In this document: positions 10,382-64,000 of the stretch, piece by piece
Position numbering within the stretch: the first letter of the stretch is position 1
Layout: the number at the start of each line of letters is the position of its first letter
From: Planctomycetaceae bacterium
Lineage (GTDB): Bacteria; Planctomycetota; Planctomycetia; Planctomycetales; Planctomycetaceae
DNA: 64,000 bases
NCBI GenBank assembly: GCA_021732415.1
Contig: JAKFVC010000048.1
Span: forward strand, 1 to 64,000
Direction of reading: 5' to 3'
Notes under the pieces: generated by a model
Databases searched by the model: none
What the model was told of the DNA's origin: nothing
Seen by the model: only the letters and a program-made list of their open reading frames with translations
Position numbers and translations under genes: made by a program

Positions 10382-10679
10382 ATTCCTGATCCGTCTTCTT
10401 TTTTGCCAATAAGAATTGGACGTCGTTCATGGAAGCAGCGGAAGCGAAATGAAGGCCACAAACTCGTAGGAGCCACGAGTGCCGAAAACCTATTAAAATA
10501 CGGCGAATGAGTCGCAGCATTTGTCGTCTTCGTTCAACACATTCGACCGTTCAGAATGGTTGATGATGGAGGCACCTTTCGGGTGGGCTCGTGAAATCGT
10601 GTGAGCGACAGGCAGCATGGCCCGCCAGGGCGGCTTCGATCTATCATGGATCATTCGTTGAACCGCGAGAGAAACGTCG

Positions 10680-18998: not shown

Positions 18999-19009
18999 GG
19001 CTTCTGTCC

Positions 19010-20143: not shown

Positions 20144-20290
20144 TTGAGACTCCCTTGAATGGACTCGTGGACCTTCAAGTGTGCAGCGCCTGATCCTTAG
20201 CATCCGTGAAGCAGATTTACTATTGGCTGGAACCTGCAATTGCATCTGGCGTGCCAAACACGCTTCCAAAATTTAGCGCTGGTGCGGCAA

Positions 20291-23350: not shown

Positions 23351-23443
23351 TTGGTCTGACCAACTCGTGCATCTCTCTTTTTTCGCCAGCACGTGTCGAA
23401 CGACCAAACGGGCCACCTCGTCGTCGAACGGGGATGAATGCAA

Positions 23444-26400: not shown

Positions 26401-26833
26401 GTTTGATCAGAATGAGATTCTGCAACGGATCAAGGCCGGACAAGCGGTTAGCGAAGACGATCTTCAATCGCTAGTCTCTCTGGTGCTCACACAGGAACCG
26501 GACCTCAACCTATCCGACCTAGTGGACTACTACCCTGAAACCGCCGGGCACTTGGATCTGGCAATCCGCAGCATCATTGGACTTGATCCCGAAGCCGTAA
26601 AGCAGCGTTTCAACGCCTTCGTTCAGAAACACACCACCATGAATTCCACGCAGCTCCGCTTCATGCAGATGCTGCAAAACCACATCGCGAAGTATGGCTC
26701 CATCGAAGTCGACCGCCTGTATGAGGAGCCGTTCACGGCTCTTTCCGCCAGCGGAGTCGATGGCATTTTTCGTGAAGACCAGATCGATGATCTGCTGGAG
26801 ATCATCGGAGCTTTTCGCCCGATCGACACCTGA
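23444..26833 (+). CDS. hsdR: Type I restriction enzyme, R subunit
   Basis: About 1129 residues. An N-terminal DUF4145-like region (residues 15-120) and a short coiled coil are followed by the nuclease domain ([19 protein letters not shown]: the D...E-x-K signature). Next is the SF2 motor with [26 protein letters not shown] (DESH box), GLTATP and [14 protein letters not shown]-terminal EcoEI-type domain completes it. The protein translocates and cuts unmodified DNA with the M and S subunits. Two ATGs lie six bases apart (23438 and 23444) behind GGGGATGA; I prefer the second by spacing. It is the first gene of hsdRMS and is probably sigma-54 controlled. Confidence 0.93.
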
Positions 26834-26954
26834 CACCGGACTTTGACTGATGCCCCAACGCACCTTCGACTTCGATTCTAAGTTGCGTTCATCGGTCCGA
26901 GCGGTCCCCCAACAACATTCCGATGAGAACATCTTCGACCTACGCAGGACATCC

Positions 26955-28556: not shown

Positions 28557-29728
28557 CAGACACAATCAAGAAATGGCCGACTAAGCCCTTGGGAACAGTG
28601 GCCAAGATCGAACGGAACAGTGTCGCGCCGGAAGACATTCGGAGCGGGTCGTTATACGTCGGGCTTGAGAACATCACCGGTAGCGGTGGTTTCGACAGTG
28701 TGCGAGAGGTCGCCAATGGCGAGCTTGTCAGCAGCAAGTTTGTGTTCACACCGGAACACGTGCTCTACGGAAAGCTCCGCCCTTATCTCTCAAAGATTGC
28801 GCGCCCAGGTTTTTCGGGGATTTGCAGCACTGATATTTTGCCTTTGTTGCCCGGCACGGAGGTTGACCGTGACTACCTATTCCACTTTCTTCGCCGCCCA
28901 GAAATGGTTCAGCATGCCACCACTCGATCAACAGGGGCCAATCTGCCGCGTTTGAGCCCGTCGGAACTTGTACAGTTTGAGATTCCGTTGCCGAAGTTGG
29001 AGGAGCAGAAGCGGATTGCCGCCATTCTCGATAAGGCTGACGCCGTCCGGCGTAGGCGGCAGGAAGGGGCATCGCTTTCGCAATCTCTCAGGCGGGCTAC
29101 CTTTTGCGACTTATTTGGTGATCTCAAGTCAAATCCACTCAGATGGGCAACCAAAACTCTTGGGGATATCTGTCACGGCAGATTGCGAAATGGCGTTTCC
29201 CCATCTAGTTCAGGCGATTATGTCGGATCGGTCCTTGTGCTCTCCGCAATCACTGGAGATCGCTTCGATGCCACTTGTGTCAAAGAAGGGACCTTTGCGT
29301 CACCCTTCACGGAGACTCAACTTGTAAACGAAAACGACTTTCTGATTTGTCGCGGCAATGGAAACGTCGAACTGGTTGCGCGAGCAGCGTTTCCAACGTC
29401 TGTGATTGAGCACTGCGTGTTCCCTGACACCATGATCGCGGCAACTGTTGATACCAGCGTGATTGAGAAGGAGTACCTAGAAGAAGTCTGGCGAACAGCA
29501 TTCGTTCGTCAGCAAGTTGAATCGGGGGCCAGGACGACGAACGGAACTCATAAAGTCAACCAGGGCGTGTTGGAAGAGGTGGCGTTTCCGATTCCGCCGC
29601 TTTCTTTACAGAAAGAATTCGGAGCGATAAGCCGCGACTGTGAAACACTTCGCGAGAAGTTTTCGGATGACATCGACGGTGACTTGTTCAACTCCCTCGT
29701 CCAACGAGCGTTCAAGGGGGAGCTGTAA
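28553..29728 (+). CDS. hsdS: Type I restriction-modification specificity subunit
   Basis: The 391-residue protein has the usual two target-recognition domains separated by conserved helices. The first half ends in IPLPKLEEQKRIAAILDKADAV, the classic HsdS helix. The second domain carries a typical GNVELVARAAFP stretch and ends in VAFPIPPLSLQKEF and the closing helix SLVQRAFKGEL. HsdS sets the DNA target of the complex; the target sequence cannot be predicted. ATGA overlap with hsdM indicates coupled translation. Both halves are present, so the enzyme is probably functional. Confidence 0.9.
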   Translation: MTDTIKKWPTKPLGTVAKIERNSVAPEDIRSGSLYVGLENITGSGGFDSVREVANGELVSSKFVFTPEHVLYGKLRPYLSKIARPGFSGICSTDILPLLPGTEVDRDYLFHFLRRPEMVQHATTRSTGANLPRLSPSELVQFEIPLPKLEEQKRIAAILDKADAVRRRRQEGASLSQSLRRATFCDLFGDLKSNPLRWATKTLGDICHGRLRNGVSPSSSGDYVGSVLVLSAITGDRFDATCVKEGTFASPFTETQLVNENDFLICRGNGNVELVARAAFPTSVIEHCVFPDTMIAATVDTSVIEKEYLEEVWRTAFVRQQVESGARTTNGTHKVNQGVLEEVAFPIPPLSLQKEFGAISRDCETLREKFSDDIDGDLFNSLVQRAFKGEL

Positions 29729-48712: not shown

Positions 48713-49699
48713 ATGCTCCGACTCACCGCGGGATTTCTCGCCGCTTTCATCGTCGTGACGTCGACGTCCGATCTCTTCGCCTGGAATGCCGCCGGTCACA
48801 AAACGATTGCCTCGATCATCTGGCGGCGGCTTGCGGAAGAACGGCATGCCGAACTGGCAGAACTCCTGACGCATCACCCACGGTATCAAGAGGATTTCGT
48901 CACCGCGCTCCCGGAGTCCGTGAAAGATGCCGATCCGCTGGTTCGCGGGGAGTGGTTGCTGCAACAGGCGTCGGTCTGGCCGGATATCGTGCGGGGAGAT
49001 CCGCCTGAACGCAAAGCCTTCAACCGACCCGGATGGCATTATCTGCCAAAAGGATTCTTCTTGGCGGATGCCGATCCGGCGTTCCGAATCAAAGCCGAAA
49101 CCGGGATGAATCGGAAACTCGACCCCGTCGGCGGAACGGAAAATCCCGATTTGAATGGTCCGCAAGCGTTCAAAGCAAATCTGGCATTGCTCAAGAGTTC
49201 GTCGGCACCGAAACCCGACCGGGCCGTAGCATTGTGCTGGGTTCTGCATCTCGGCCAGGATTTGCACCAACCGTGCCACACAGCCAGTCTTTGCTTGCCG
49301 CGCTTGTTCCCGGAAGGGGACCGCGGTGCGAACAGCGTTAAAACCAAAGAACAAGGCAACCTGCATGCCGTGTGGGATGGTCCGTTGGGTCCGAATGAGC
49401 GCTATGAACAATGCCGGGATTGGGCGATTGTCTTGCTCGGCGAAGCCGATCCCACCGCACTCCAGGAATCCGTCGGCGATGCCGATGCCGAGATCGCAAA
49501 ATGGCTGAGCGAAGGATGGCAACTTGCAGGGGAAGCCGTTTACGTCGGCGAGCTAAAAGAAGCGATCCTGCGTACCGAAACCGGTGAAGGAACGCTTCCC
49601 GTGATCGACCTCACAGACGACTATCTGCGGAACGTGCGGAGGGTGGCGGACAAACGGTTTGTGGCGTCCGGTGTGCGGATGGGGCATTTGTTGAAGTGA
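48713..49699 (+). CDS. Secreted S1/P1-type nuclease
   Basis: 328 residues. The signal peptide MLRLTAGFLAAFIVVTSTSD ends before FAWNAAGHKTIASI; the N-terminal Trp and the His of W-x3-GH are zinc ligands in S1/P1 nucleases. Further ligands are VWPDIV, LCWVLHLGQDLHQPCH and NLHAVWDG. The enzyme cuts single-stranded DNA and RNA outside the cytoplasm, probably for phosphate or nucleotide recovery. Its length and motifs are complete. No ribosome site is obvious. Confidence 0.9.
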   Translation: MLRLTAGFLAAFIVVTSTSDLFAWNAAGHKTIASIIWRRLAEERHAELAELLTHHPRYQEDFVTALPESVKDADPLVRGEWLLQQASVWPDIVRGDPPERKAFNRPGWHYLPKGFFLADADPAFRIKAETGMNRKLDPVGGTENPDLNGPQAFKANLALLKSSSAPKPDRAVALCWVLHLGQDLHQPCHTASLCLPRLFPEGDRGANSVKTKEQGNLHAVWDGPLGPNERYEQCRDWAIVLLGEADPTALQESVGDADAEIAKWLSEGWQLAGEAVYVGELKEAILRTETGEGTLPVIDLTDDYLRNVRRVADKRFVASGVRMGHLLK

Positions 49700-49909
49700 T
49701 CGACCGCGATCAATCGTCGTTGGAGGGACGTTGCCATTTTACCGTGACAATGACGCACCTGGGTTTACAATGGCCCGCGACATCACAAAGCCGTGGGAGA
49801 TTGCCACGGTCGTTCGGCATTTCAAAATCTGTGCGACAGCCGATTTGGCTGTGCAAAGGAAACTCGGCAAACTGCGATCCCGACACTCTGTCATCGTAGG
49901 GAGATGACC

Positions 49910-51019
49910 ATGCCCATGTACTGGAAACTGAAGTATTGGAAGAACAAAAGCGACCGCGAGCGAGTGATCGATCACCTGACCACATTGAGGAAGCACATCG
50001 CCAAGTCAGTCCCGCGGCGCACGGCGTCCGACACATTGCTGCTGGCGACCTGGAACATTCGTGATTTCGATTCCAATAAATTTGGGGAGGGGCCGCGGAT
50101 CGCCGAGTCGTTCCACTACATCGCCGAAGTCATTGCCGCGTTCGACCTGGTGGCCATTCAGGAAGTGAACGAGGACATGCGGCCGTTCGAGAAGGTCATG
50201 GATTTACTCGGACCAAATTGGCGGTATATCGCCACCGACTTGACTGAGGGACCGTCCGGCAATGGCGAGCGGATGGTCTTCGTCTATGACTCGAACAAGG
50301 TGCAGTTCAAGTACATTGCAGGCGAAGTGGTCCTGCCAAAGAACGCGCTCGTCGGCGGGATCGATCAACTTGCCCGGAGCCCCTTTCTGGTCCGCTTCCA
50401 GTCCGGCTGGTTCAAGTTCAATCTCTGCACAGTCCACCTGTATTACGGAGACGATTCTGGCGCAGGGAAAGCGCGGCGAGTCGCCGAGATTGACACGATT
50501 GGCAAGTTTCTGAAAAAACGTGCCGACGAAGACGGTGAGAATTATGTCCTACTCGGCGACATGAATGTCGTGAGCCCCGAAGATGAGACGATGAAGGCGC
50601 TCAGGAAACACAAATTTGTCTTGCCCGCCGACTTAACCGAAGACAACAACACCCTGCGCTGGGTGAGCAACATGAGCGGGGACAAGCATTACGACCAGAT
50701 CGCCTTCCTCCCCCGCAAAGACGAGTTGGAACTGGGCCCGAGCGAGAACAACGCGGGCGTGTTCAACTATTACAAAGCAGTCTACACCGAAGACGAAACC
50801 GAGACGTACTACCCGCTCGGCAAAGAGAATGGAAAGTGGCCGGACACGGCCGCCAAGCGAAAGACGTACTTTGCCAAGAAATGGCGCACCTGGCAGATGT
50901 CGGATCACCTGCCGCTGTTTATCGAACTGCGGATCGACTTCACGGAGAAGTACCTGAAACGAATCCGCGAAGGGACGCAACCGGTGGACCCTCCCACCAC
51001 CGACGCGACGGACGGTTGA
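49910..51019 (+). CDS. Endonuclease/exonuclease/phosphatase family protein
   Basis: 369 residues. The EEP fold is clear: TLLLATWNIRDFDSNK (Asn), LVAIQEVNED (metal Glu), VLLGDMNVVSPEDET (D-x-N) and MSDHLPLFIEL (catalytic His). It could cleave DNA, a phosphoinositide or another phosphodiester. The ATG at 49910 has GGGAG six bases upstream; ATG 49904 immediately abuts that site. No signal peptide is present, so it is probably cytoplasmic. Confidence 0.85.
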   Translation: MPMYWKLKYWKNKSDRERVIDHLTTLRKHIAKSVPRRTASDTLLLATWNIRDFDSNKFGEGPRIAESFHYIAEVIAAFDLVAIQEVNEDMRPFEKVMDLLGPNWRYIATDLTEGPSGNGERMVFVYDSNKVQFKYIAGEVVLPKNALVGGIDQLARSPFLVRFQSGWFKFNLCTVHLYYGDDSGAGKARRVAEIDTIGKFLKKRADEDGENYVLLGDMNVVSPEDETMKALRKHKFVLPADLTEDNNTLRWVSNMSGDKHYDQIAFLPRKDELELGPSENNAGVFNYYKAVYTEDETETYYPLGKENGKWPDTAAKRKTYFAKKWRTWQMSDHLPLFIELRIDFTEKYLKRIREGTQPVDPPTTDATDG

Positions 51020-51126
51020 GGATTCGGAACGGAGTTGCTGGTCGGGCCACATCTGTCATGGAGAATCAGTGGCGGCGACCCAGTGATTAACAGACGCTCG
51101 GCGGTGGTCGGTCTTGGGGGGAGCGA

Positions 51127-51777
51127 ATGATCTCGACGCGCGATCTGTCGCTGCTGCCCGACGTGGATGGCCTCCGCCGCGTCTTGCAGTCGATGGCGAT
51201 GCTCGACGCGGTCCTCTGCCCGGAGTGGCAGGACCGCTACTACCTGTTTAATGCCACTTGGTCCCCTGGCGAGCAGATGGGTTCCATGCGGAACGGCAGT
51301 GGCGACGGGTTCTTCGCCCATTTCGGTAAGGCTGGGTGCTGGTTCAAGGGGTTCGCGCACGAGTCCCCGCTGTCGCCGTATCGTGAGCGGCCACCCCGCC
51401 CCTGGCCGGGAGTATTGGACGCTGTGCCGGCCGAGTTTTCCGGTTGCTTACAGGAGCCCGCGTTCAGCGTCGAGGAGGTGACATTCTGCGTCTGGCGGCG
51501 GCTCGGCGAGCCCGCTTGGCAGGTGGGGCCGGTTAATTTTCCGCCCACCCACCCGGACGCGGATGGATCAATGTTCCTGTTGTCGGTCTTGGATGGCCGG
51601 CCCGAGTCCTACCGCGACTGGGCGGTAGACTATTATGAGCGTGAAGTGGAGTTGGCTGCGGTCGCCCATGTGTGCGCGCACAGGCCACTCACACCGGAAT
51701 TGGTCACCCGGCTCAACCGGGACCTGTCAGTGGGCGAACTAACGGCGGACATCAGCGAGATCGGCTATCCTCGGTAG
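51127..51777 (+). CDS. Hypothetical protein (216 aa)
   Basis: No known motif. WQDRYYLFNATWSPGEQMGS and GDGFFAHFGKAGCWFKGFAH resemble SMI1/KNR4-like or immunity-type small proteins that recur in planctomycetes, but the match is not good enough to name. GGGGGGAGCGA precedes the ATG. The C-terminus is helical (VTRLNRDLSVGELTADI). Confidence 0.6.
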   Translation: MISTRDLSLLPDVDGLRRVLQSMAMLDAVLCPEWQDRYYLFNATWSPGEQMGSMRNGSGDGFFAHFGKAGCWFKGFAHESPLSPYRERPPRPWPGVLDAVPAEFSGCLQEPAFSVEEVTFCVWRRLGEPAWQVGPVNFPPTHPDADGSMFLLSVLDGRPESYRDWAVDYYEREVELAAVAHVCAHRPLTPELVTRLNRDLSVGELTADISEIGYPR

Positions 51778-51894
51778 CAGACGTCCGCCGAACCTGGCGC
51801 AGCAATCGACGACGGGGCTTGATTCGGTAGATTTCCTCGCTCACGGGTGACCCGCTGCTGTGGAGCACTATCATTCCGCGATGAAGACGCACCG

Positions 51895-52335
51895 ATGGCG
51901 GAAATCTTTGTCCCCCTAAAAAGTCTCGGCGAGGTACCGGCGTCACACGCTGTCCAGATGCGGTACCTGCCGACTGCCGATCGATCGGTGTTCGGCACCA
52001 TCCGACTCGGCGTGGTCTTCGTCATGGCCTGGTGGAGCGGCGGGGCTCGGCAGGGGTTCGCCCAACTCAAGCAGGTGCTGGCTACCGTCGATCCGCGTGA
52101 CCGGCTGGAGTTGGTCGTGGTCGACACCGACGGTTGCCCGGACCTTTACGAGTGCCCGGAGTTCGCCGGCCAGTTACATGGGTGGGGCGAGGTCGCGTGG
52201 GTGCGAGACGGGCAGGTGGTCGGCACGTCGGGCCTGGGCTATCATCCCGAGTGCTTGGAGTCTTTTACGCGGGAACTGCTGGCAAGCACCACTCACACCG
52301 AATTGGGCGCTGCATCGGAACGGGGCCGTAGTTAG
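51895..52335 (+). CDS. Hypothetical protein (146 aa)
   Basis: FGTIRLGVVFVMAWWSGGAR and RLELVVVDTDGCPDLYECPE form an alternating alpha/beta pattern that loosely recalls a thioredoxin fold without its CxxC. I cannot name it. The ATG at 51895 is the first Met of the well-composed part of the frame. Confidence 0.5.
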   Translation: MAEIFVPLKSLGEVPASHAVQMRYLPTADRSVFGTIRLGVVFVMAWWSGGARQGFAQLKQVLATVDPRDRLELVVVDTDGCPDLYECPEFAGQLHGWGEVAWVRDGQVVGTSGLGYHPECLESFTRELLASTTHTELGAASERGRS

Positions 52336-53957
52336 CGTTTCTGGGATTTGTGCATGGCTAGTATTCGGACTTCCCCCAGTCCATATCACCGGCCTGGTAG
52401 TGAACGTCGTCATTCGGCGATGCGGACATGGTGGTTGAGTTGCCGGCCACGGTGTGTCCCATCGGCGACCCCGTGAGGGCATCCCTGTGGCAGCGCCCGG
52501 GGCGTGCGTCGCTCTCGCTCGCTGCGGCTGAACGGCACCGAGATCGCCACCACGGCTCGGCCACACCCACCCGTCAGCTCCTCTACATCCTGGGGAACCC
52601 TTCGCGGGGGCTGTGTCGCCCCCCTCCCAATGGCCCCACCCGTCGCTTCTGGAAGGGGCTTGCTAAGCACCCGAGTCATGATGAAGTACAAGTACCTCGG
52701 AATCCGGGGCCAGTTCGGCAAGGCTCCCGTCGACGTCAAAGAGCACGTCGGAGGACGTAATGGCCGGGCTAAACGGCGCGTGAGAGCGGGGGTGAGGCAG
52801 GCACTGAGAGCCCTCCCCGGATCACCAACCAGAGAAATGCGAGCGCTCACAGTCCCACATCCAGAGAGTGCGACGCATGGAAAAACCGGCTTTAAGGTCG
52901 ATTTGGCGGGTGCTAAAGTCACAGCACACGGAAAAGAGCACGAGAGATAAGAAGTTACAGCGATTTTCGCCCGGCGAGTGATTGCGAAATCGCCAACGAC
53001 CCTTGATTTCATGCGTCAACACGCACCGATATCAACGGATGCCCTGACCCAGGGAAGCCGTTTTCGAGGTTTGCCCGTGATTTGCCAAGTCGTTAGGAGC
53101 GTTTACATGCGCGTATGGGTCACATTGTGTGGGCGGGTCGGCGAACTCACTGCCGCGATTGCACTGGCAATCCACCGTGGGGAAAACTCACAGAGAATTG
53201 AGCACAGGTAATCGGTCGGCAGCCCCCCTTCGAAGGGCTCACAGGGGCGGCGTTTGTCGCCCTCCCAGTGAGGTGCCCAGCCGTCATGCGGACGCAGGCA
53301 GTGTAAAGGCGTGAATTGCGAGAAGTCCTCAACCGTTCCAGATTCCTGTTCTCGGCCAGCGGTGCCCACTGCGTCCCTGCGGACGCTTCACGCCCCCATT
53401 GGACGATCTCCCCCGGGGACGACTCCCCACGATTCTGAGGTGGCTAGCAGCGTATTGGAAGCCGCGATCTTTGGACAAGATTCTGCAAAAGTTGCGAATC
53501 GGTAGCGGCCGAGATCGCCGTGGGCGAACGTGCTGGCGTCGCTGCCAACACACGGTCCACATCCCTCTTTGAACCCCCTCCGCGGAGGCGTCTCGACCGC
53601 CTCGCAGAGCCTTGTTCAGAGGCTTCAAGCAAGCCTCGCAACGCGACCCTCCAGCCCCGTCGACTGATGGCCCCTGACAGCCTAGCGGCATCGGCTGGAC
53701 CCAGCCTGACCTCCGCAGTTCCGCCCCAGGGAGCCGGAGCGTCGACGTCAGCCAACCAGCCGTCTCAGGGCACATGCACGGCCGCCCCCCTGCTGAACAT
53801 GTATTTTGAACCCAAGCGTCGGACGGAAGTTGAAACCTGTGCCTGAATGGCCGGTTTCGCAATTCCACAGTACTTCACTGGTCGGCAACTGCATGCCTTA
53901 GTTGAGAATTCCACCCGGTGACGGCTGTATCAGTTCGACTCCTATCCATTCTAACCC
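52336..53957. other. 1.6-kb stretch without a supportable gene, GC-rich repeats
   Basis: Every open frame here has unnatural composition and no motif. Three loosely similar GC-rich blocks stand out, near 52593-52660, 53218-53290 and 53569-53645. Each has an AACCCCC/TTCG start, an internal GGGGCGG/CCGCC pairing and a C-rich end. They could be structured RNA, remains of mobile elements, or chance. No promoter is apparent. The region borders the reverse-transcriptase operon. Confidence 0.4.
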
Positions 53958-54524
53958 TTATTGCCGTAGCGATTTCAGGTCGACCGGGATCACCGCGAGA
54001 ACGTCACATGGCCACTTCTGATCCAACCACTTTGCCAAGTCCTTCACGCCGAGCACGACAGCTGAGTTCTCGGAGACCACGATGACGGGATGTTCTCCCC
54101 GCCGTTCGATGGCCTCGGCGGTTGTCAGGTCTTCGTCCGTGATCAACTCAGGTCCCAAGGCTCCGAGGTTCTGACGGGAAAACTGCCGCAACGAATCGGT
54201 GACCAGATCCCGCAGTCGGAACAAGAACCCCTCTCTGTCCAGCTTCTGTGAGACTTCTTTGTAGACGTACTTACGACGAGACGTCCGCTTGGTCGGCTTT
54301 TCAGCGGTGATTTGTTCCAGCGTCATCCCTGATTTCAGTTTCTCGCGCACGTCCATCGCTTGAGCGAAGACTTGTGCGGGCCATCTTGCAATCCGGCCTC
54401 GCCCCGATGAAACAGGCTCGATCGTCGGACCGTCGATTAGTCCGGCTTCGCGCCATCGCCGAAGTGTTTCCGGCGATTTCAGCCTCAACTTGGCGAGCAA
54501 TTCTTGCGTAGTCAGCGTGTCCAT
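53958..54524 (-). CDS. MerR-like DNA-binding regulator
   Basis: 188 residues. LTTQELLAKLRLKSPETLRR followed by WREAGLIDGPTIEP is a MerR-type helix-turn-helix with the W-R-E-x-G-L-I recognition helix. The next part (AQVFAQAMDVREKLKSGMTL) resembles the helix that links the wings. The C-terminal half (about residues 100-185) contains IVVSENSAVVLGVKDLAKWL, a small unknown sensing domain. The gene is transcribed away from the ParB-like gene, with 117 bases between their start codons. I infer that it controls the adjacent operon. Confidence 0.75.
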   Translation of the reverse strand: MDTLTTQELLAKLRLKSPETLRRWREAGLIDGPTIEPVSSGRGRIARWPAQVFAQAMDVREKLKSGMTLEQITAEKPTKRTSRRKYVYKEVSQKLDREGFLFRLRDLVTDSLRQFSRQNLGALGPELITDEDLTTAEAIERRGEHPVIVVSENSAVVLGVKDLAKWLDQKWPCDVLAVIPVDLKSLRQ

Positions 54525-54543
54525 GAATTCTCCTACTTGATTT

Positions 54544-54620
54544 CAGACACCCGCTACGTTAACAATGGCGTCTGTAGGTCGACAATTTTGTCTGTCGCTT
54601 GTAGGAAGTCAATCGCAGAC
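54544..54620. promoter_or_regulatory. Operator-like repeats between MerR-like and ParB-like genes
   Basis: GTCTGT occurs at 54570-54575 and 54590-54595, exactly 20 bases apart. Each is flanked on the outside by its inverted form CAGAC (54544-54548 and 54616-54620). The symmetric set lies between two divergent genes and is likely bound by the MerR-like protein. Confidence 0.5.
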
Positions 54621-54641
54621 CCCTCGATATGGGAGCCACTG

Positions 54642-55463
54642 ATGCAAATCATCAAGATTCGGATTGCCAATCTGCGACCGCACCCCTGTCAGGATGAAAT
54701 CTTCGGGGATTTGTCCGCCGGCGAATATGCAGCTTTGAAGCAGGACATTCGGCTACACGGCATTCGGCAGCCCATTGAAGTCACGTCTGAAGGAATCATC
54801 GTCGATGGTCATCATCGCGTCCGAGCGCTCCGCGAGCAGGGCATCGAAGAAGTCGACGCGATCGTCGTAGAAGGCGACACTGAAGTGCGCTTCGCGACGG
54901 CAAATCTAGCGCGACGTCATGCGGACCCTGTGACGAAGGCTCGCTCGATCCAGCACTTGGCCAAGATTGAATCCCGCCGAACCGGCATCCGCATCGATTT
55001 GCACGAAAACGGACCATTTCGCGAACGGTTAGCCTCCCTGCTGGGTAATACCTCGGGACGGACAATCGATCGCTACCTCCAACTGCTCCGGCTGGAACGG
55101 GAGATTCAGGACGCGGTCTCTTCCGGTCAGCTTCCAATGACCAAAGCGCTCAAGATCGAATCGCTGCCGAAGGCCGACCGAAAGGCGATTGTCGAGCGGC
55201 TGAAGAAGAAAGAGCCGCCTCGCAAGGTCGTGGAAGATTATCTCCGGCTTCCGCAGGTAGAAGAGGAAGTCCTGCCGGAGGATCGCTACCGCGAACTATG
55301 TCAGTTCTTCGAGGCATCTCTCGACGACCTCGCCCTTCACACTCAGCTGATCGTGGGATCGGCTGACACCAAAACACCGGCCCCGCAGCTCTTGGCCCGC
55401 GCCGCGGCGTTCTGTGCCCAGATGCAGCATCTCGAACTCCAGGTTCAAGGCGGAACGATGTAG
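54642..55463 (+). CDS. ParB/Srx-fold domain protein
   Basis: 273 residues. The N-terminal 100 are a ParB/Srx fold: IRIANLRPHPCQDEIFGDLS, DIRLHGIRQPIEVTSEGIIV, DGHHRVRALREQGIEEVDAI and then TANLARRHADP. These positions bind NTP in ParB (GHHR box). A helix-turn-helix follows (RERLASLLGNTSGRTIDRYL), then helices rich in Lys/Glu. It probably binds DNA or acts as a CTP/ATP-dependent switch; it is not next to parA, so it is unlikely to segregate DNA. GGGAG lies seven bases before the ATG at 54642. It is the first gene of the RT operon. Confidence 0.8.
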   Translation: MQIIKIRIANLRPHPCQDEIFGDLSAGEYAALKQDIRLHGIRQPIEVTSEGIIVDGHHRVRALREQGIEEVDAIVVEGDTEVRFATANLARRHADPVTKARSIQHLAKIESRRTGIRIDLHENGPFRERLASLLGNTSGRTIDRYLQLLRLEREIQDAVSSGQLPMTKALKIESLPKADRKAIVERLKKKEPPRKVVEDYLRLPQVEEEVLPEDRYRELCQFFEASLDDLALHTQLIVGSADTKTPAPQLLARAAAFCAQMQHLELQVQGGTM

Positions 55464-55516
55464 CTCTGCGTTGTGTTTTACCGCTGTTGGACACGCTGTC
55501 CCGCAAGATTGACGGA

Positions 55517-57070
55517 ATGTATTTACCACTGAGTCATCCCATGCCCCACAACCGCACCCCAACCCCCAGTACGGGTCCTCTGCCAGTCACGATCACTGTC
55601 AATGGCGGGCTTTCTCAAGTCCGTCCCGCATGCACCGAAGTCCTGGCTCCTGTACTCTCCTATGAGGAATTCCGCTTCGGTCCCAGCGCCGACGGCCGTC
55701 TTGCCCATTTCGTGGCATCCGAAGTCGCCTACAAGCAGGTGGACGATCATCTGGAGATCGTGACAGGTTGCCTTCAACGAGTGATCCAGCGACTGGCCGA
55801 GGCCGGGCATGAGGTCACTGTCGATGATCGCCGGAATTGTTCGCACGATCCAATCCAGATCAATACAAGTGTCCTCTCGGACGCCGAGGCAATCGCGCCG
55901 GGATTGGCTGAGGTCCTGCGCGTTCAACGGCAGGGCGTCCTCGAATGCAAGGATTGCAGGAGAGCGGACATCGTCGGCTGCCTCTGCCAGCTCTTTCGGC
56001 CCGCCACAATCTTCATCGCCTGCAAGACCAATGAAGCCGCCCAATCGATGGCCGCGAGATTGGGCCAGTACCTGGGCGGCGGAGTGGAGGCGGTTCACGG
56101 GTGGAACTGGGCGTTCTCATGCCGCGTTGTCTGTGGCACATTTCAGAGCTTGAATCGCAGTAACCCAGCGGACTGGCAGATCCTGGTGTTCGCGGATGCG
56201 CGTGAGGGCATTCAGGCCACGAACAATGACGCCATGCGTGATTACTGTCATCACCGCCTGTACGCGTTCGACGATCCCCGGAAACGCCGATCTCCCGAGG
56301 AAGAGCTGCGGATCGAAATTCTCGCCGGTTCGGTGATCTATCGCGACCCCCAACTTCGCCGACCGCGCACCACCGAGTTCCTGGCAGCCTTTTTGTCGCA
56401 TTCATCCAGCGGAGGGCATCCGTCCACGAATGCACGCGATCACCGCACTGCTCTTTGGCAGGACTCCCGGCGCAATCAATCGATTGCCGACGTCGCACGA
56501 GCGCTGGCACGTGGTGAAGAAACATCGCTTTGGAATCATGAGCTAGTTCTGGAAGAGGAAGATATCGCGCCCCTCGGGCAGCAACGAGGAGTGGTGGTCG
56601 TCGTCGACTCCTATGAGCACGGAAATCAGCTGCGCCGCCTGCTTCGCGGCTGGCAATTCTTTCACGGCCAACCACACCGCGATCAGACCGCCTTGCACAG
56701 CGCTCCCGTGCCGGTATGGGGCGTCCCACGAAATTCGATCATCACCGCCGTGGTCGCCAACTCGCTGACGTGTATGGATGCTCGCATCGTCGTTTGGGCC
56801 AGCGGCGGCAATGTCCCGTTCTTACCACCCGTCCTGGGACGCTCGCAGCAGACGCAACTGCTGATCGACGTCTGGGATGACGGAAATTCGCTGCTGGCAG
56901 CAGAGACCCGGCAACGACTGGACATCTACCGAACCCTCGGATGCCGGATTCTTGGAGACAACCTCGCCCGTCGGGAACAGGTTCTGTCTCAGCAGATCGA
57001 GTCGCACGACTCAATCGCCAATCAAAACACCTCGCGCCGACGTCGTCGGTCGCATCGTCCGTCCGTTTGA
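55517..57070 (+). CDS. Helicase-like protein with degraded Walker A
   Basis: About 517 residues with two apparent RecA-like halves. In the first half, GVLECKDCRRADIVGCLCQL takes the place of a Walker A strand-loop-helix but lacks the G-x4-GK(S/T). ATIFIACKTNEAAQSMAARL follows as motif Ia and WQILVFADAREG as a degraded DEAD box. The second half (residues 310-500) has ISFLV-like strand GVVVVVDSYEHGNQLRRLL and MDARIVVWASGG. No residue set for ATP hydrolysis is complete, so it is likely a structural or nucleic-acid-binding relative. The start is uncertain (55487 TTG, 55517 ATG, 55541 ATG). It lies between the ParB-like and RT genes. Confidence 0.6.
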   Translation: MYLPLSHPMPHNRTPTPSTGPLPVTITVNGGLSQVRPACTEVLAPVLSYEEFRFGPSADGRLAHFVASEVAYKQVDDHLEIVTGCLQRVIQRLAEAGHEVTVDDRRNCSHDPIQINTSVLSDAEAIAPGLAEVLRVQRQGVLECKDCRRADIVGCLCQLFRPATIFIACKTNEAAQSMAARLGQYLGGGVEAVHGWNWAFSCRVVCGTFQSLNRSNPADWQILVFADAREGIQATNNDAMRDYCHHRLYAFDDPRKRRSPEEELRIEILAGSVIYRDPQLRRPRTTEFLAAFLSHSSSGGHPSTNARDHRTALWQDSRRNQSIADVARALARGEETSLWNHELVLEEEDIAPLGQQRGVVVVVDSYEHGNQLRRLLRGWQFFHGQPHRDQTALHSAPVPVWGVPRNSIITAVVANSLTCMDARIVVWASGGNVPFLPPVLGRSQQTQLLIDVWDDGNSLLAAETRQRLDIYRTLGCRILGDNLARREQVLSQQIESHDSIANQNTSRRRRRSHRPSV

Positions 57071-57094
57071 TCCCCGCAACGAAAGGAGACCACC

Positions 57095-58984
57095 ATGTAC
57101 AATCGGCCCGCCCGGCGAAGGGCCGCAATAGGGTTCGCCGGCGCTCTTGCCCGCCAGATTCCCGCGACCTCTCACCAGGGATCCGCGTGTGATTTTCTGC
57201 GCCGACATGAGCTGGAAGTTCAGCAGGCCCTGCAAAGCAACCAACGCGAACGATCAGCGCTCGCAGGGGAATTGCTTGAGCGAGCCGGAGATGACCGAAA
57301 CGTCCAGCAGGCGATCGAGCATTGCGCCTCTCGGGGACAGGCAGCGGGGCCAAATGGTCTAAGACCAGCGGCTCTCAACGCCCGTTCCCGGTGGAACCTC
57401 GCAAGTACCCTGGGCGAACTGATCGAAAACGGTGAATACCAACCCAGCGAACCAAGGACCACCTGGATCGATAAAGGCCGAGGCCGTGGCCAACGCCCAA
57501 TTCGTATTCAGAACTTCGAGGACCGCTGTGTGGAACGCGCCGTTCTCCAGATCATCCGCCCGTACACCGAGTCGCAATACCTCGACCACTCAATGGGATT
57601 CCGGAGTCCAGGCTTCTCTCGCGAGCGAGCCTTGGCAACGGCAGAACATTGGGCACTGACCCATGGCCAATGGTTATGGATCAGTGACGACCTGCGCGAC
57701 GCCTTCGAACATGTCCCGACCAGACGACTGGCTCAGATTCTGCGTCAGATGATCCCCAACGAACGTCTGTGCAGATTCATCGAGCGTATCGCCTTCACAC
57801 GTAACAGAAAGGGAATCCGGCAAGGCGGCCCACTGTCTCCCGAGCTACTCAACATCTTTCTACATTGGGTACTCGACCGATGGTGGCGTCAACACTTTCC
57901 GGAAAACCCACTGCTTCGTGTGGCAGACGATTTGCTGATCCTGGCCCGCCCCGAAGAGGCCCAATCACTGTACCAGGCGCTGATACAGCGTACGACGGCG
58001 ATTGGCATGCCCCTGAAAGGATCGATTCTGACCTCGCTACGCAACCTCACATCCGGCCAATCCGTGGATTGGTTAGGATATCAGGTGCGCCATGACAGTT
58101 CAGAACTGACGGTCAGAATCGGCCAGAAGTCCTGGGACAAACTCGAAGATCACTTGCAACTGGCATGGGAAGCGCCGATACCGGCCCTGGCGGCCAACGA
58201 GACCATCCGGGGATGGATCAGCCAGCAGGGAGCATGTTATCGGGAAACAGAAGTGTCAGGGGTGTGTTCGGAAATCTCCCGGCTTGCAGGAACGCAGGGA
58301 TTTCAGGAGATCCCGGAACATCGTGAAGTAGCACTGCTATGGTCTCGGGCGTATGACCGTGATTGGCTACAGGCACGTCAGGATGTTTCACATCAGGTTT
58401 CTCCGGGTACGTTGCCTGCTGGTGGCTTCGCCAGCCAGCATTCCGTTTCAGCGGCAGTTTCCAGCCGCGGCCGAGTGGCGATTGCCACCGGCACAACCAC
58501 GCAGTCAACGCCGCGTCGGCGCGAGGTGTTTCTCTATTGTGACGGATCGTGTCTGAGCCCCCACGGCGTGGGAGCTTGGGCCTATCTGTTGATTGACCGG
58601 GAAACCGGATGTCGCCAATGGAATGGAGGTGCAGTTCAGGAAACAACAAACAATCGAATGGAGCTGACGGCGGTGATTCAGGGATTGGCCGCACTCTCGG
58701 AGTCGTCCCAAGTCCACCTGGTGGTCGACAGCCGATATGTTGACAACGGGATTACCCAATGGCTACCGACATGGCTTGCGCGTGGCTGGCGATCGGCCGA
58801 TCGGCAGTCACGGCGGGTTGCGAATGTTGACCTTTGGGAACAGCTGGTGGAGCAGTTGCAACGGTATGAGGTCGACTCCGAATGGATTCGCGGGCATGCT
58901 GGCCATCCTGAAAACGAACTGGTAGATCGGATGGCCCGGACCATCGCGGAACAGTTTGAGGATCAGCCGCTGGCGGAACCATAG
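57095..58984 (+). CDS. Reverse transcriptase fused to RNase H
   Basis: 629 residues, start secured by AAAGGAGA. The RT domain spans about residues 70-340. It has motif A ISDDLRDAFEHV (Asp 198/199/202), the group-II/DGR-like motif RQGGPLSPELLNIFLHWVLD, and catalytic box VADD at residues 276-279 where most families have YADD. NFEDRCVERAVLQIIRP is the RT0/1-2 region. A 120-residue linker is Ser/Thr/Gly-rich. From about residue 478 an RNase HI follows with all four acids: LYCDGSCLS, NNRMELTAV, VVDSRYVD and RGHAGHPENELVD. It could make cDNA and remove the RNA template itself. No retron RNA or intron is visible. Confidence 0.88.
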   Translation: MYNRPARRRAAIGFAGALARQIPATSHQGSACDFLRRHELEVQQALQSNQRERSALAGELLERAGDDRNVQQAIEHCASRGQAAGPNGLRPAALNARSRWNLASTLGELIENGEYQPSEPRTTWIDKGRGRGQRPIRIQNFEDRCVERAVLQIIRPYTESQYLDHSMGFRSPGFSRERALATAEHWALTHGQWLWISDDLRDAFEHVPTRRLAQILRQMIPNERLCRFIERIAFTRNRKGIRQGGPLSPELLNIFLHWVLDRWWRQHFPENPLLRVADDLLILARPEEAQSLYQALIQRTTAIGMPLKGSILTSLRNLTSGQSVDWLGYQVRHDSSELTVRIGQKSWDKLEDHLQLAWEAPIPALAANETIRGWISQQGACYRETEVSGVCSEISRLAGTQGFQEIPEHREVALLWSRAYDRDWLQARQDVSHQVSPGTLPAGGFASQHSVSAAVSSRGRVAIATGTTTQSTPRRREVFLYCDGSCLSPHGVGAWAYLLIDRETGCRQWNGGAVQETTNNRMELTAVIQGLAALSESSQVHLVVDSRYVDNGITQWLPTWLARGWRSADRQSRRVANVDLWEQLVEQLQRYEVDSEWIRGHAGHPENELVDRMARTIAEQFEDQPLAEP

Positions 58985-59144
58985 CCTTGTGAAGTGGCTC
59001 ACAAATCCAATACCAGCATTGTGGCCAAAGGCTGCTGCGCCCGCGGTACGCCCTAAGCAGAATGCTTGTGGGCCGATCGGTGGAAAGAAGTACGCTGTCC
59101 GACCATCGTGATCGGCCAGTATCATCTGGAATAAAGGTCTTGTG

Positions 59145-60248
59145 ATGTTGAAGGACAGGGTCCGTAAGCTGAGCGTGCGCGTTGCACTGATGACTCCGCT
59201 GTTCCTGACCTTCGGGGGCAATGCGCAAGAGCTATCTCCGAAGAAGATCGCTTCTGAAAGCATGACTCGTTCGCCCCGAGTCGTTGCCCAGCAGCTTGCC
59301 GCCGTCTACGGGAAGAAGCTCGATCAGGTCGCCTATATTCCGGCGCTGCCGCTGGTGGCGAAATTGCGTCTCAGCGAACTGACGCAGGAGCCGAAGTACG
59401 CCGCTGAAGTCCAGATGATCGTCGCCCCCTATCTCAACGGTGAGAAATCGCCGATTCCGAAATCGGGGAGCGAACAGGCGGGGCATCTGATTTTTGCCGA
59501 GTTGGCCCGACGAGCCAAGGGTCAGGACCGCGAACGCTGGACGGAATTGTGTCGCAAGGCTGCTGATCAAATCTTCGACAGGGATGGCAAGCCGCTGCCG
59601 ATCATGCCTTTTCACAACGAGATGAGCGATGCCGTATTCATGGCGGGGCCGATCCTGGCAGCAACTGGCAAGCTGACCGGCGAGCGTCGGTACTTCGATG
59701 CCGCGGTGACTCACTTTACATCCATGCGCGCGTTGTGCGTTCGTCCCGATGGCCTCTATCGCCACTCGCCGCTCTGCGAAGCCGCGTGGGGACGCGGAAA
59801 TGGTTTTCCAGCGCTGGGACTGGCACTCGCTTTGAGTGACTGGCCCGAGGACCACCCGGCTCGGGCAGACCTCCTCAAGGAGTTTCAAAAGCACATGGCG
59901 GCCCTCAAGCCATATCAGGATGCCAAAACCGGCTGCTGGCATCAGGTCATCGATCATCCTGAGAGTTACGACGAATACTCCTGCACTTGCATGATCGGCT
60001 TCGCGTTGCAGCGCGGTATCCGCCGGGGCTGGTTGCCGAAGAACGAATACCAACCCTGCGTCGATCAAACGTGGCGAGCCATTCAGGAGCGGACCAGCGC
60101 CGATGGGAAGCTGATCAATGTCTGCTCAGGGACCGGCAAACAGAAAACACTTCAAGACTACTTCGACCGCCCGGCGATCAATGGTCGCGATGACCGTGGC
60201 GGTGCGATGGGCTTACTTTTTGCGACTGAACTTGTTGAGATTGAGTAG
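59145..60248 (+). CDS. Secreted GH88/GH105-type unsaturated glycoside hydrolase
   Basis: 367 residues with a signal peptide (VALMTPLFLTFGGNAQ). An (alpha/alpha)6-barrel is suggested by YIPALPLVAKLRLSEL, LCEAAWGRGNGFPALGLALA and CWHQVIDHPESYDEYSCTCM. W-G-R-G-N-G is the GH88/105 signature of unsaturated uronyl or rhamnogalacturonyl hydrolases, which use a water-addition mechanism on lyase products. The Asp expected in MPFHNEMSDAVFMAG is present. It fits planctomycete polysaccharide breakdown. It lies 160 bases after the RT gene but does not appear functionally linked. Confidence 0.85.
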   Translation: MLKDRVRKLSVRVALMTPLFLTFGGNAQELSPKKIASESMTRSPRVVAQQLAAVYGKKLDQVAYIPALPLVAKLRLSELTQEPKYAAEVQMIVAPYLNGEKSPIPKSGSEQAGHLIFAELARRAKGQDRERWTELCRKAADQIFDRDGKPLPIMPFHNEMSDAVFMAGPILAATGKLTGERRYFDAAVTHFTSMRALCVRPDGLYRHSPLCEAAWGRGNGFPALGLALALSDWPEDHPARADLLKEFQKHMAALKPYQDAKTGCWHQVIDHPESYDEYSCTCMIGFALQRGIRRGWLPKNEYQPCVDQTWRAIQERTSADGKLINVCSGTGKQKTLQDYFDRPAINGRDDRGGAMGLLFATELVEIE

Positions 60249-60584
60249 TCGGGAATACTCGTTCGAGAGTCGCTTGCTGGCGTACAGCATGCCACGTCAT
60301 CCGATGAGTGATCGAAGAATCGAAGTCCGACAATGATCCCCAGTCTGTGCGAATTGTGCTGCCACATGAAGGAAGTCATCTCCGGCAAGGGATCGCGCTT
60401 CATCATGTGCCAGAAATCCGTGACGGACAATCGCTTCCCCAAATACCCGCCGCAACCCGTCATTCAATGTGCTTCGTTCGAGCAGAAGAAAATCGCGACG
60501 GGTATGACGTGAGCACGGTGATCCCATGCGGATCGTCACTTCCCGGCAAGGATCAGTGACTCCTTTGCCTTTCGTGAAAGCGCA
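60249..60584. other. Intergenic stretch, no supportable gene
   Basis: About 340 bases before the decayed SDR gene. The open frames lack motifs. The sequence before 60585 in other frames does not restore the missing SDR N-terminus. Confidence 0.35.
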
Positions 60585-61412
60585 TTGCTGGCCAATTCCC
60601 GCTTCAGTGCAGGGCTGGCGATGGCCGGGCTCTTCCTCGATCGCGGATGGAATGTGATCGCCACGATGCGGCGTCTCAATCCGGGTCTGTTCGCGACAGA
60701 TTCGGAGAAGCTGAAGGTGCTTCCACTCGACGTCACCGATCCGGAGAGCATTCGCAAGGCCATCGCTGACGGCGTCGCCGCGTTTGGGGCGATCGACGTC
60801 CTCGTGAACAATGCGGGTCTCGGCCTGGCATCGGCGTTTGAAGCCACTCCCGATCACATGGTGCGCGGGATTTTCGAGACAAACACTTTCGGGATGATGG
60901 CGACTTGCCGGGCGATCATCCCCCCGATGCGTCAGCAAGGCCGGGGCGTTATCGTGAACGTCACCTCGAACGCGGCCATCGCGCCCCTGATGCCGCTCGT
61001 GTCCATCTACGCCGCCAGCAAGTGCGCCATTGAGGGGTTCACAGAATCGCTCTCGAACGAGCTGGAGTTATTCAACATCCGGGTGCGGCTGGTCGAGCCG
61101 GGGCTGGCACCCACCACGAACTTCGCGGCCAACGGTGGCCCACGGATGCAGGGGTTGATTCCCGCCGAATACGAGGCTTTTGCCCAGACCTTATTCACCA
61201 AGATGGCGAACTATCCGACCGACTACTGTACTGAAGCAGAAGTCGCCGAGGCCACATTCGCGGCGGCGACCGAGGACGGTCGCGCTCCGCTATCCCGCCG
61301 GCGCAGACTCGCGGCTCACCACGCTCCGTTGGACAACCTCGGAAGAGCACTACCTGTCGAAGATGCGGGAACTCTTCGGACCGGGATTTGTCCCGACAGC
61401 GCCTGGAAGTGA
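60585..61412 (+). pseudogene. Decayed short-chain dehydrogenase/reductase
   Basis: The SDR core is intact: DVLVNNAGLG, VIVNVTSNAAI (catalytic Ser region) and SIYAASKCAIEGF (YxxxK). The NAD(P)-binding TGxxxGIG segment is absent from the start, which reads FSAGLAMAGLFL. Around 61275-61290 the frame shifts. The normal SDR tail (RYPAGADSRLTTLRW) continues in another frame. Both defects indicate a pseudogene. Confidence 0.75.
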
Positions 61413-61466
61413 TGGACATGCTGGAAGGCGGGTTGCTTTGCGCTGGTTTGTTGATAAGGATGTGAA

Positions 61467-63098
61467 TCATTCAACGGGTGTCGACGATTGCTGTTCCCGG
61501 AACTGCTGAATATGCCGACTGACTGTCGGGCTCGACACTCCCACTGCCGCCGCGATCTGCCCCGTCGGCAATCCCTGCTCGTGCAGGGTGATGATCCGCT
61601 CAATGACGGACCTTTTCGTGTATGCCTGGGGCTGGGGTGAAAATGGGGTCGGGCCGGCCTCGGCGAACACTGGGCCGAGGTACGTCTCGACGGCGCGGAT
61701 TGCGCGAAACACTTTGCCGAAGGGGCGGTTCGTATACGCGTCCGACAGAGAATCTGTTTTAACCGGCTCGCCGTGGCAATCAAACACGCCTGCGATTTCG
61801 CCATCCGAGTGGCGTTTAATCAGATCGCTCGCCGTCTTGCGCAGTTTGCCGAAGGACAAGGGGCGAACTTCCTGCCCGTCGTCGCGTATGCGCTCGATGA
61901 GCCGAGCGAACTGGTTGGGAATCGCCTGATTGGCATTGCTGCCTTTGGTCTGTTGGTCGAACGGCGCTCCTTTCTCGTTGAGAATCAGGCGGGACGACTT
62001 GGCGAAATCGGGAAATTGCTCTCGACGTTCGCGGGCCCACTCCAGGGCCTGAACCGTAAGGGGAAACAGGATATGTTCGCCGTACACACCGCTCTTTCGG
62101 CGGATGCGTTTGATGAAGCTGTCGCTGTCGGTCGTCTCAAAGCCCAGGATTTCCTGCTCGCGAGGCGAGTGCCCCTTCCGAATGTGGACTTCTCCGACGA
62201 GCAGCGAGGCGATCTCGGCCCGTCCGAAGCCGCAGTTCAACCCGAGCAGTAGCAATAGCCGGTCGAAGGGCTGGCCGTACCGCATCAGCAGACGTAACTC
62301 ATCTAGTGAGAACGTATCGACCTGCTCCAGGCTGCGCTTGGCATGGTCGCTGGGGAGCCGACGAATGCGTCGATCGAAATCGTTGAAGGCTTGGGGCTTC
62401 GTCCATTCAAACTCACTGGTGCTGTGCAGCCACGTCAGAAACCGCATCAGGGTTCCGAGGTAATGGCTGGCCGCTTTGGCGCTGATGGGCTCGGTGCTCC
62501 CGAGTTTACAGGGACGGCGACGCCAGTAACCGATCAACTCGCCGACGGCCGTCGCGTCGAGCTGGCTCAAGAGCTGGTCGGGGTGATGGTGTTGGAGATT
62601 TTTGATCTGCCGCACTTGAATTCTTCCCCACGGCGAGATGTGCCCCGTTTCCTGCCGAAAGAACTCTTTTTGTAAATAGCCCTGAAAGCGTTTGAATGCC
62701 TGATGCAGGGTGGCCGACAGCGATCGCGTCGGCATGGTTTTCGGGTTGGGGACACTCGGTCCTGAAGGCACCCGTGATGCGGACTGCGGAGCAGCGTCTG
62801 TGGGCCGAGCGGCGGGATCGCTGGGCTTGAGAATCCCCAGCCGATCAAGCTCGCTCCAGGAGTTTTTTGACGGGGCAGGGGTGAGTCCGAGAACGGGATC
62901 AGCCGAGATGCCTGCCTCATGCGCGAGCTGCTGAATTTTCACCCGTGCCCGCGCTTGGTCGTCCGTCAGCGGTTCGACCTTGATGTTCTGAGTGGTGTTC
63001 GGGATGGCCTCGAAGAGTTCCAGCGCGGCCTGCCCGATCTCGTATGCGTGCTGGTCTTCGGGGATGAAGCAGATCGGCAAGTAAAAAGTAGACCACAC
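61467..63098 (-). CDS. Tyrosine recombinase with C-terminal helix-turn-helix
   Basis: 543 residues. After a variable N-terminus (start GTG at 63098, uncertain), a SAM-like DNA-binding domain spans residues 170-290. The catalytic part has box I LLLGLNCGFGRAEIASL (first Arg), FGKLRKTASDLI (second Arg; the H of H-x-x-R is Gly), VFDCHG (His) and DAYTNRPFGKVF (Tyr nucleophile). The last 45 residues form an added HTH (AAAVGVSSPTVSRHIQQF). It may mobilise an element whose edge lies nearby. It faces the decayed SDR and the truncated gene at 63220. Confidence 0.75.
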   Translation of the reverse strand: MWSTFYLPICFIPEDQHAYEIGQAALELFEAIPNTTQNIKVEPLTDDQARARVKIQQLAHEAGISADPVLGLTPAPSKNSWSELDRLGILKPSDPAARPTDAAPQSASRVPSGPSVPNPKTMPTRSLSATLHQAFKRFQGYLQKEFFRQETGHISPWGRIQVRQIKNLQHHHPDQLLSQLDATAVGELIGYWRRRPCKLGSTEPISAKAASHYLGTLMRFLTWLHSTSEFEWTKPQAFNDFDRRIRRLPSDHAKRSLEQVDTFSLDELRLLMRYGQPFDRLLLLLGLNCGFGRAEIASLLVGEVHIRKGHSPREQEILGFETTDSDSFIKRIRRKSGVYGEHILFPLTVQALEWARERREQFPDFAKSSRLILNEKGAPFDQQTKGSNANQAIPNQFARLIERIRDDGQEVRPLSFGKLRKTASDLIKRHSDGEIAGVFDCHGEPVKTDSLSDAYTNRPFGKVFRAIRAVETYLGPVFAEAGPTPFSPQPQAYTKRSVIERIITLHEQGLPTGQIAAAVGVSSPTVSRHIQQFREQQSSTPVE

Positions 63099-63219
63099 TC
63101 AGGGTCACCAAAAAAACTATCCAACTCCCAAGTGCACCCTTAAACCACCCTGGACACCAACTCGCCTGCCGTCTCCACGCGGCAAGCGATTCCGTGGTTT
63201 GCACATTGGGAGTTTTCTC

Positions 63220-63759
63220 ATGGATGAGCTTCTCACGCTCAAGGCGCATTCTGCCACGTCGGTGATTGCCGCGGCCGATCTTGGCCTAGTCTTTTCCGAG
63301 AACGTGCTCTCGGACTCAGCCTCAACGGAGCGAACGGCAGGCTCCGCGCCAGCGGATGCCGTTCGCTCCGCGGGGGCGTTGACTGTAACACGCCCCCCGG
63401 AAAATACAGGAAAAGAAGGAGAACTGGCCGGTAGGCCAATTGCACCGGAGGTGCTGATCGCCGGGACGGATACGCTCGACCTGGGACTCTACGTGGAGTT
63501 CCCCGAAAGTTACCCACGGCTCGTGCAAATTCTGGCCAGATGGAAACGAGCCGCCTCGGGATCGAAGGGACTCGTGGTCGGTGGCGGCCGGTGTCTCGTT
63601 TCGCCGGGTGGGAAGCCGAACTATCCGTTCCACCTGCGGTATCCCCAATTTGAACTCTATCTCTCTCGTCATCCGTGCCCCCAGGGTGACACGCCCAATG
63701 TCTTCGTGTCCCTCGGATCGCAACTGCTGTGGGAACGGGGTGATCGAGACAGGCAATAA
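63220..63759 (+). pseudogene. Truncated gene, possibly a replication-initiation remnant
   Basis: The ATG at 63220 has GGGAG upstream. The 179-residue product shows TDTLDLGLYVEFPES, YPFHLRYPQFELYLSRH and TPNVFVSLGSQLLWERG. Rep-type initiators have a comparable beta-rich start, and in those proteins the sequence continues past LW-x-G for 200 residues. Here the frame ends within a few codons of that point, and a neighbouring frame carries a short coding-like run. I read it as frameshifted or truncated, and the family is a guess from memory. Confidence 0.35.
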
Positions 63760-64000
63760 GCTACCGAGAATGTCGGGAATGATGGCAAGTTTTTGCGGTG
63801 ATCCCGGAGAGGTCGTCGAGATGGTCGACGACGAAGTGAATGATCGAACCTTCGCGTGGCAGGATGCCGCGGGCGATGAACGCTCCTGAACAATGTCAGC
63901 CCTGCCGATCCCGTGGTCTATATCGCTGCGGCGGCGGATGGTCGCGAATCGCGCATCTGCGACTTTGGCTTTAGTCCGACCTGGTCCGATTCGAGACGCG
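63760..64000. other. Right edge, no complete gene
   Basis: Short runs such as NVSPADPVVYIAAAAD (plus strand, near 63893-63945) resemble the junk-like tail of an FtsX-type permease, but no full domain or start is present. Confidence 0.3.

Follow-up and report, generated by a model that had tools for sequence, protein, structure and literature searches.

Bacterial reverse transcriptases (RTs) have repeatedly proved to serve antiviral defence or repair and to make unusual products, and the capture of an RNase H is rare in cellular RTs. Here we describe an RT fused to an RNase HI and encoded next to a degenerate helicase-like protein, hereafter the pseudo-helicase, in a Planctomycetaceae bacterium with a 9.87-Mb genome assembly (GCA_021732415.1; the window is the stretch of 64,000 nt analysed, positions 1 to 64,000 of contig JAKFVC010000048.1). 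The four genes of the locus, namely a divergent MerR-like gene followed by ParB-like, helicase-like and RT-RNase HI genes on the other strand, were confirmed at the positions listed in Table 1. The pseudo-helicase and RT genes recur together in other genomes and apparently constitute a bacterial gene module which is scattered among planctomycetes and has not been described previously.

By profile, the nearest RT family is that of group II introns, from which the module RTs differ in forming a separate clade and in lacking a match to the GIIM domain. Group II intron RNA (domains V/VI) gave no Rfam match at E<=1 in window positions 49000-64000 and none in a gathering scan of ten relatives. The closest prior label for the clade, compared by description only, is G2L5 ("group II-like 5", Simon and Zimmerly), a likewise planctomycete, group-II-like set of RTs without intron RNA and unplaced in trees; three sequences are known and the maturase domain is said to be kept, and the accessible portions of these reports describe no partner gene, no RNA and no split by a YxDN active-site motif (PMC4244168, PMC8934634). 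With retrons and the antiphage RTs of the defence-associated and unknown groups (DRT/UG), the module shares an RT, a partner protein, location on islands and, in relatives of the window copy, an adjacent structured RNA. The partner, however, is a pseudo-helicase, and UG and retron models score at most 78 bits on family members; Rfam scans of the window and ten relatives found no retron msr-msd RNA, and retron RT models gave at most weak matches. CRISPR-associated RTs, including RT-Cas1 fusions, also lie on the group II side. No cas gene is present in the operon, and a CRISPR link suggested by locus L135 was dropped, as a CRISPR-Cas locus merely abuts that copy, the only such case among 58 family loci. 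The original prediction had also called the RT similar to those of diversity-generating retroelements (DGRs). This likeness did not hold: no qualifying template/variable repeat pair exists in window positions 49001-64000, and the RT lies on the group II side of the tree, far from the DGR RT Brt. Finally, retroviral and long terminal repeat (LTR) elements also carry both activities, RT and RNase H, on a single polypeptide; by contrast, the module RNase HI is of the bacterial RnhA type and was joined independently, and the operon lacks an integrase, a protease and LTRs.

Recurrence and core of the module

Searches with the RT and the helicase-like protein as queries recovered distant relatives with the same neighbours. 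The closest relative, 82% identical, is in a Planctomycetaceae metagenome-assembled genome (L005). A profile of the helicase-like family, built from a 16-sequence alignment and then used for genome searches, matched 9 of 392 genomes in a phylum-wide sample, all 9 from the window's own class, and 48 of 397 genomes (12%) within that class, Planctomycetia. The association of the two genes holds from both directions. An RT is present in 39 of the 43 loci reached via the helicase-like gene (L044-L046, L096-L135), and the helicase-like gene adjoins the RT in 12 of the 13 clade loci reached via the RT (L047-L059), the only exception (L055) being at a contig edge. The helicase-like loci devoid of an RT comprise one at a contig end (L104) and two broken copies (L128 and L134), all three readily accounted for, and L119, in which the helicase-like open reading frame (ORF) is intact and no RT occurs within its 13.5 kb. 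In addition, the two genes are joined into a single ORF in L046, L097, L111, L115 and L133. No full-length relative was found in viral contigs, phages or plasmids.

The full cassette, with divergent MerR-like, ParB-like, helicase-like and RT genes, is found in the window and in five other loci (L047, L099, L100, L103 and L127); since the gene order recurs in other genomes, the operon is more than a chance arrangement. A ParB-like gene without MerR is found in L048, L102, L105, L118, L120, L122 and L125, and the divergent MerR-like gene without ParB in L057, L096 and L124. Across the RT tree, we count about 8 changes for ParB, about 3 for RNase H and about 2 for helicase-RT fusion, which argues that the core is the helicase-like gene plus the RT and that the rest is variable. 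Thus, the ParB-like protein, although correctly recognised as such in the original prediction, is not the core part proposed there. From these sequence comparisons, the RT/pseudo-helicase pair is tied together by gene order and about two gene fusions, and the DNA-binding genes at the front end (MerR-like, DUF1580 or ParB-like) vary. Of the six best relatives of the ParB-like protein among 148 genomes of the class, four are in module-bearing genomes, three of these inside the cassette. The MerR_1 match of the divergent protein is stronger in its relatives, reaching 4.9e-5 in L047.

The start of the helicase-like gene is uncertain (TTG 55487, ATG 55517 or ATG 55541), placing it 23 nt after ParB, or 53 nt with the ATG at 55517; it is followed 24 nt later by the RT gene, with AAGGAG preceding the RT ATG. 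Between the MerR-like and ParB-like genes, divergent promoter-like sites overlap (54559-54586 on the forward strand and 54612-54585 on the reverse), and the repeats reported there as symmetric proved to be weak direct, not inverted, repeats (54566-54613).

Several genomes (G050, G612, G621 and G702) carry more than one module copy, and the copies in L008, L121, L128 and L134 are broken. The decayed copy L008 in G028 (727-2286, forward strand) retains the C-terminal part of the RT with the RNase HI, joined to an unrelated membrane-like N-terminus. In L120, parts of the RT 3' end and of the sequence downstream of it are repeated between the ParB-like and helicase-like genes, as if a section of the module had been duplicated and shuffled (4535-4697 and 5336-5491 versus 8869-9038 and 10354-10509).

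The reverse transcriptase and its helicase-like partner

The helicase-linked RTs occupy one side of a branch that sets them apart from other planctomycete RTs and from those of group II, DGRs and phages, with a Shimodaira-Hasegawa approximate likelihood ratio (SH-aLRT) of 99 in an 81-row tree and bootstrap/SH-aLRT support of 100/99 in a 61-row tree; the window RT thus lies outside the retron, DGR and group II clades. With the recurrence of the genes elsewhere, this leaves the original prediction unrefuted on both of the counts that it had named. A hidden Markov model of these RTs separates them cleanly, with at least 278 bits for members versus at most 208 for others. Although the window RT strongly matches the group II profile TIGR04416 (3.4e-37), PADLOC's generic RT model gives family members 82-163 bits, compared with 231-242 for true group II RTs. 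UG models reach at best 78 bits on family members, and the window RT obtains 52 bits with UG17 versus 128 with the generic model.

The catalytic aspartates of the window RT are intact (D199 and D278/D279, the latter in motif VADD), as is the DEDD active site of its RNase H (D483, E523, D545 and D611, plus H601), in line with the original description of a group-II-like RT with a complete RNase HI. The family is divided by its motif C: YxDN occurs in 34 of 34 RTs of one branch (support 100/100 in the 61-row tree), whereas the two aspartates are kept in all 19 RTs of the other branch, including the window, and in 27 of 27 RTs outside the family. A narrow literature search found no published report of the YxDN branch.

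The fused RNase HI domains differ among loci. Those of the window, L005, L103 and L127 belong to the E. coli type (for the window, 4.2e-35 against E. coli RNase HI; weaker for L127, 1.5e-6), another is carried by L131, which lies on a separate branch (1.7e-23), and those of L044, L045 and L098 belong to a different subtype near Bacillus halodurans RNase HI (3e-30 for L044). Family RTs acquired RNase HI independently on about three occasions, one of them involving a different subtype, which argues that removal of RNA from a hybrid matters to the system. Other RTs (L105, 3854-6679; L106, 2339-5083; L116, 8794-11337) bear C-terminal extensions of about 350-480 amino acids (aa), with no Pfam match where scanned.

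The helicase-like protein has no match in Pfam, NCBIfam, PHROG or PADLOC. A 48-member profile of its family, compared with individual proteins, matched best to HsdR (ResIII) of the same window, aligned across both RecA domains (P=5.5e-4) such that motifs Ia, Ic and IV coincide. All seven top partners are helicases, HsdR being followed by six other superfamily 2 (SF2) helicases, and every non-helicase ORF of the window ranked lower. Motifs I (GxGKT, Walker A) and II (DExH, Walker B) are absent both in the 16-sequence alignment and in that with HsdR, in agreement with the degenerate helicase proposed originally. Accordingly with this profile comparison, an SF2 (HsdR-like) RecA-tandem fold is likely. 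In 15 of 16 close pairs, the protein has diverged more rapidly than the RT, strikingly so between L044 and L045, where aa identity is 57% for the helicase-like protein versus 88% for the RT.

Candidate RNAs beside the reverse transcriptase

The original prediction reported no visible RNA, which stands for the window copy and fails for its relatives, where candidate RNAs lie in the gap separating the two core genes or immediately 3' of the RT. In L044, L045 and L098, about 500 nt separate the two genes, and this stretch is 71-90% identical, mostly 79-90%, exceeding most of the 53-83% range of the helicase-like gene itself. It folds better than shuffled sequences (z-scores of -5.7 and -3.2). Within this gap, L044/L098, L118 and L123 share a hairpin of the form CGnCC...GGnCG followed by TTAA, of which L045, L120 and L122 have variants; its background rate is 0.01-0.02 per kb.

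In seven loci of the YxDN branch, an RNA of 120 nt with three hairpins, ending in GCGAnCC, lies directly 3' of the RT. Of 19 hand-aligned pairs, 15 hold in each of the six compared sequences, with many compensatory changes, the alignment having been fitted to the structure so that pair counts lean toward it. Over 1.0 Mb (58 family loci, the window and 20 control regions), a covariance model of this RNA retrieved below E=5 only the seven training loci, whose E-values are low by construction, and nothing in the window.

Intergenic stretches of the window show no unusual folding. Two places had been put forward for a conserved non-coding RNA, 52336-53957 and 54525-54641, and neither bore this out: there was no Rfam match, and the latter shows no sign of structured RNA (fold z-score -0.6). 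The former, which adjoins the operon, is a 1.6-kb stretch without convincing genes and is single copy in the genome. Two further candidates were discarded, namely a shared hairpin with a GCTCCGC loop 3' of the RT, which has no positional enrichment, and a tandem repeat of a 24-nt unit in L115, which looks like a coding repeat.

Genomic surroundings and competing explanations

Neighbourhoods of the 58 family loci were compared with the 20 control regions, taken from the same genomes. A tyrosine recombinase occurs at 19 of 58 family loci versus none of the controls (p=0.002), and gene X, a member of a three-gene set X/Y/Z, at 17 of 58 versus none (p=0.004). Gene X and the helicase-like gene are found together in 23 genomes, compared with about 6 expected, and gene X occurs without the helicase-like gene in 28 genomes, so that the RT pair looks like cargo. 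From these associations, the module is probably carried on integrating mobile DNA. The X/Y/Z set, exemplified by L045 (7882-9641, forward strand) and relatives, gave no Pfam match for the members scanned and is common beside the module and in other planctomycete genomes. The window is itself a defence island, with a CBASS (cyclic-oligonucleotide-based antiphage signalling) pair and a type I restriction-modification operon 24-37 kb upstream of the operon (Table 1). In L135, a CRISPR array of about 33 repeats (GTGCTCAACGCCTGACGGCGTCATTGAATGAATCAC) sits 400 nt downstream of a truncated module copy, with Cas2-like and Cas4-Cas1-like genes, apparently of type I-C (8628-10961 and 11245-13968).

Table 1. 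Features of the operon and its surroundings in the window
Feature	Position	Strand	Remarks
MerR-like regulator, 188 aa	53958..54524	-	divergent; weak MerR_1/HTH_17 matches, below cut-off
Divergent control region (MerR-ParB gap, 117 nt)	54525..54641		overlapping promoter-like sites and direct repeats
ParB-like DNA-binding protein, 273 aa	54642..55463	+	HTH_ParB 8.9e-6, TIGR00180 3.1e-11
Pseudo-helicase, 527 aa	55487..57070	+	SF2-like without motifs I and II; RT neighbour across the family
Group-II-like RT fused to RNase HI, 629 aa	57095..58984	+	RVT_1 and RNase_H matches
RT domain (RVT_1)	57485..58084	+	aa 131-330, 2.8e-19; motif C VADD at aa 276-279
RNase HI domain, E. coli type	58523..58945	+	aa 477-617, RNase_H 3e-36
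CBASS cyclase (AGS_C oligonucleotide cyclase) and adjacent SAVED-HNH effector	17427-20272	-
Type I restriction-modification operon hsdR, hsdM, hsdS	23438-29728	+	complete
SMC-like AAA_27 ATPase, SF2 helicase and dynamin-like GTPase in a row	5601-15879	-	another defence operon possible
SF2 helicase, BrxH/HmaA/DISARM type	10680-13487		BREX/DISARM-like
Weakly recombinase-like protein	61467-63098	-	Phage_integrase 0.033; C-terminal helix-turn-helix; possible mobile-element remnant

We tentatively favour, at slightly below an even chance for the model as a whole, an island-borne, two-component machine in which the RT and the pseudo-helicase copy a cis-encoded RNA in the service of conflict. The pseudo-helicase would be a nucleic-acid-binding scaffold holding a structured RNA encoded beside the RT, an RNA seen in two sister lineages and not located in the window's own. 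The RT would copy the held RNA into DNA, and an RNase H, fused in the window copy or supplied by the host in others, would remove the template, freeing a single-stranded complementary DNA (cDNA). Residing on integrase-bearing elements, the module would act against phages or rival elements, and the MerR-like regulator would switch it; a defence role is plausible. The roles suggested originally, namely DNA or nucleotide recognition by the ParB-like protein, template presentation by the helicase-like protein and hybrid clearance by the RNase H, are likewise hypothetical. In favour of the model stand the conserved gene order and the fusions, the support for the RT clade, the RNase HI captures, the RNAs of relatives, the excess of integrases, the faster divergence of the helicase-like protein and the CBASS and restriction-modification genes of the window. 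Several observations speak against it. Family loci show no excess of known defence genes within about 7 kb: at E<=1e-15, matches occur in only a few of 101 neighbours, Cas1 being one, and in two of 99 controls. The window's own lineage yielded no RNA, though intergenic space there is small. RTs with YxDN may have lost or changed their activity. The helicase identity rests on profile alignment, with 5.5e-4 as its best P, and an AlphaFold model of the protein computed with two sequences had a mean predicted local distance difference test score of 31 and was discarded.

Of the alternatives, a role in the life cycle of a mobile element, with the RT/pseudo-helicase pair making a DNA copy or managing element DNA and the linked tyrosine recombinase inserting it, is unlikely but has the most substance. 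The recombinase and X/Y/Z genes, absent from all controls, the excess of genomes with both gene X and the helicase-like gene, and the several copies per genome would all fit. Nevertheless, two thirds of the loci have no such integrase within reach, the genomes with gene X and no helicase-like gene make the pair look like cargo rather than backbone, and the window has no X/Y/Z and only the weakly recombinase-like gene of Table 1. Recruitment of a group-II-like RT into host DNA repair, as reported for the G2L4 RT (PMC12337344), we consider improbable. An RT with neither intron RNA nor a GIIM match would be in keeping with that precedent, and an RNase H would be suited to removing hybrids; yet the patchy, mobile and fast-diverging distribution, at 12% of class genomes, is unlike that of a host repair gene, two lineages have dedicated RNAs, and the motif of G2L4 is YIDD (PMC4244168), as opposed to VADD, YADD or YxDN in the module RTs. 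Least credible, and very improbable, is a decayed group II intron ORF lying by chance beside unrelated genes. The strong group II match and the broken copies are what such decay might leave, but the catalytic residues are intact, fusions are repeated, the clade is distinct from group II RTs and gene order is kept down to about 25-30% identity; as a general explanation, it is refuted by the recurrence of the module.

Collectively, the comparisons point to a domesticated RT module of group II derivation, with a genuine possibility of being a new class. In its specific form, a prokaryotic RT system in which a pseudo-helicase holds a dedicated RNA, with a YxDN RT in one branch and an RNase HI in others, and which makes a defined cDNA for inter-genome conflict, the proposal is possible rather than probable, and we regard it with more reserve than the model above. 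What the family brings to the bacterial RTs is a pseudo-helicase as near-obligate partner, an RNase H captured repeatedly, candidate template RNAs and a clade-wide change of aspartate to asparagine in the active site, and its RT-RNase H proteins may prove to be useful enzymes.
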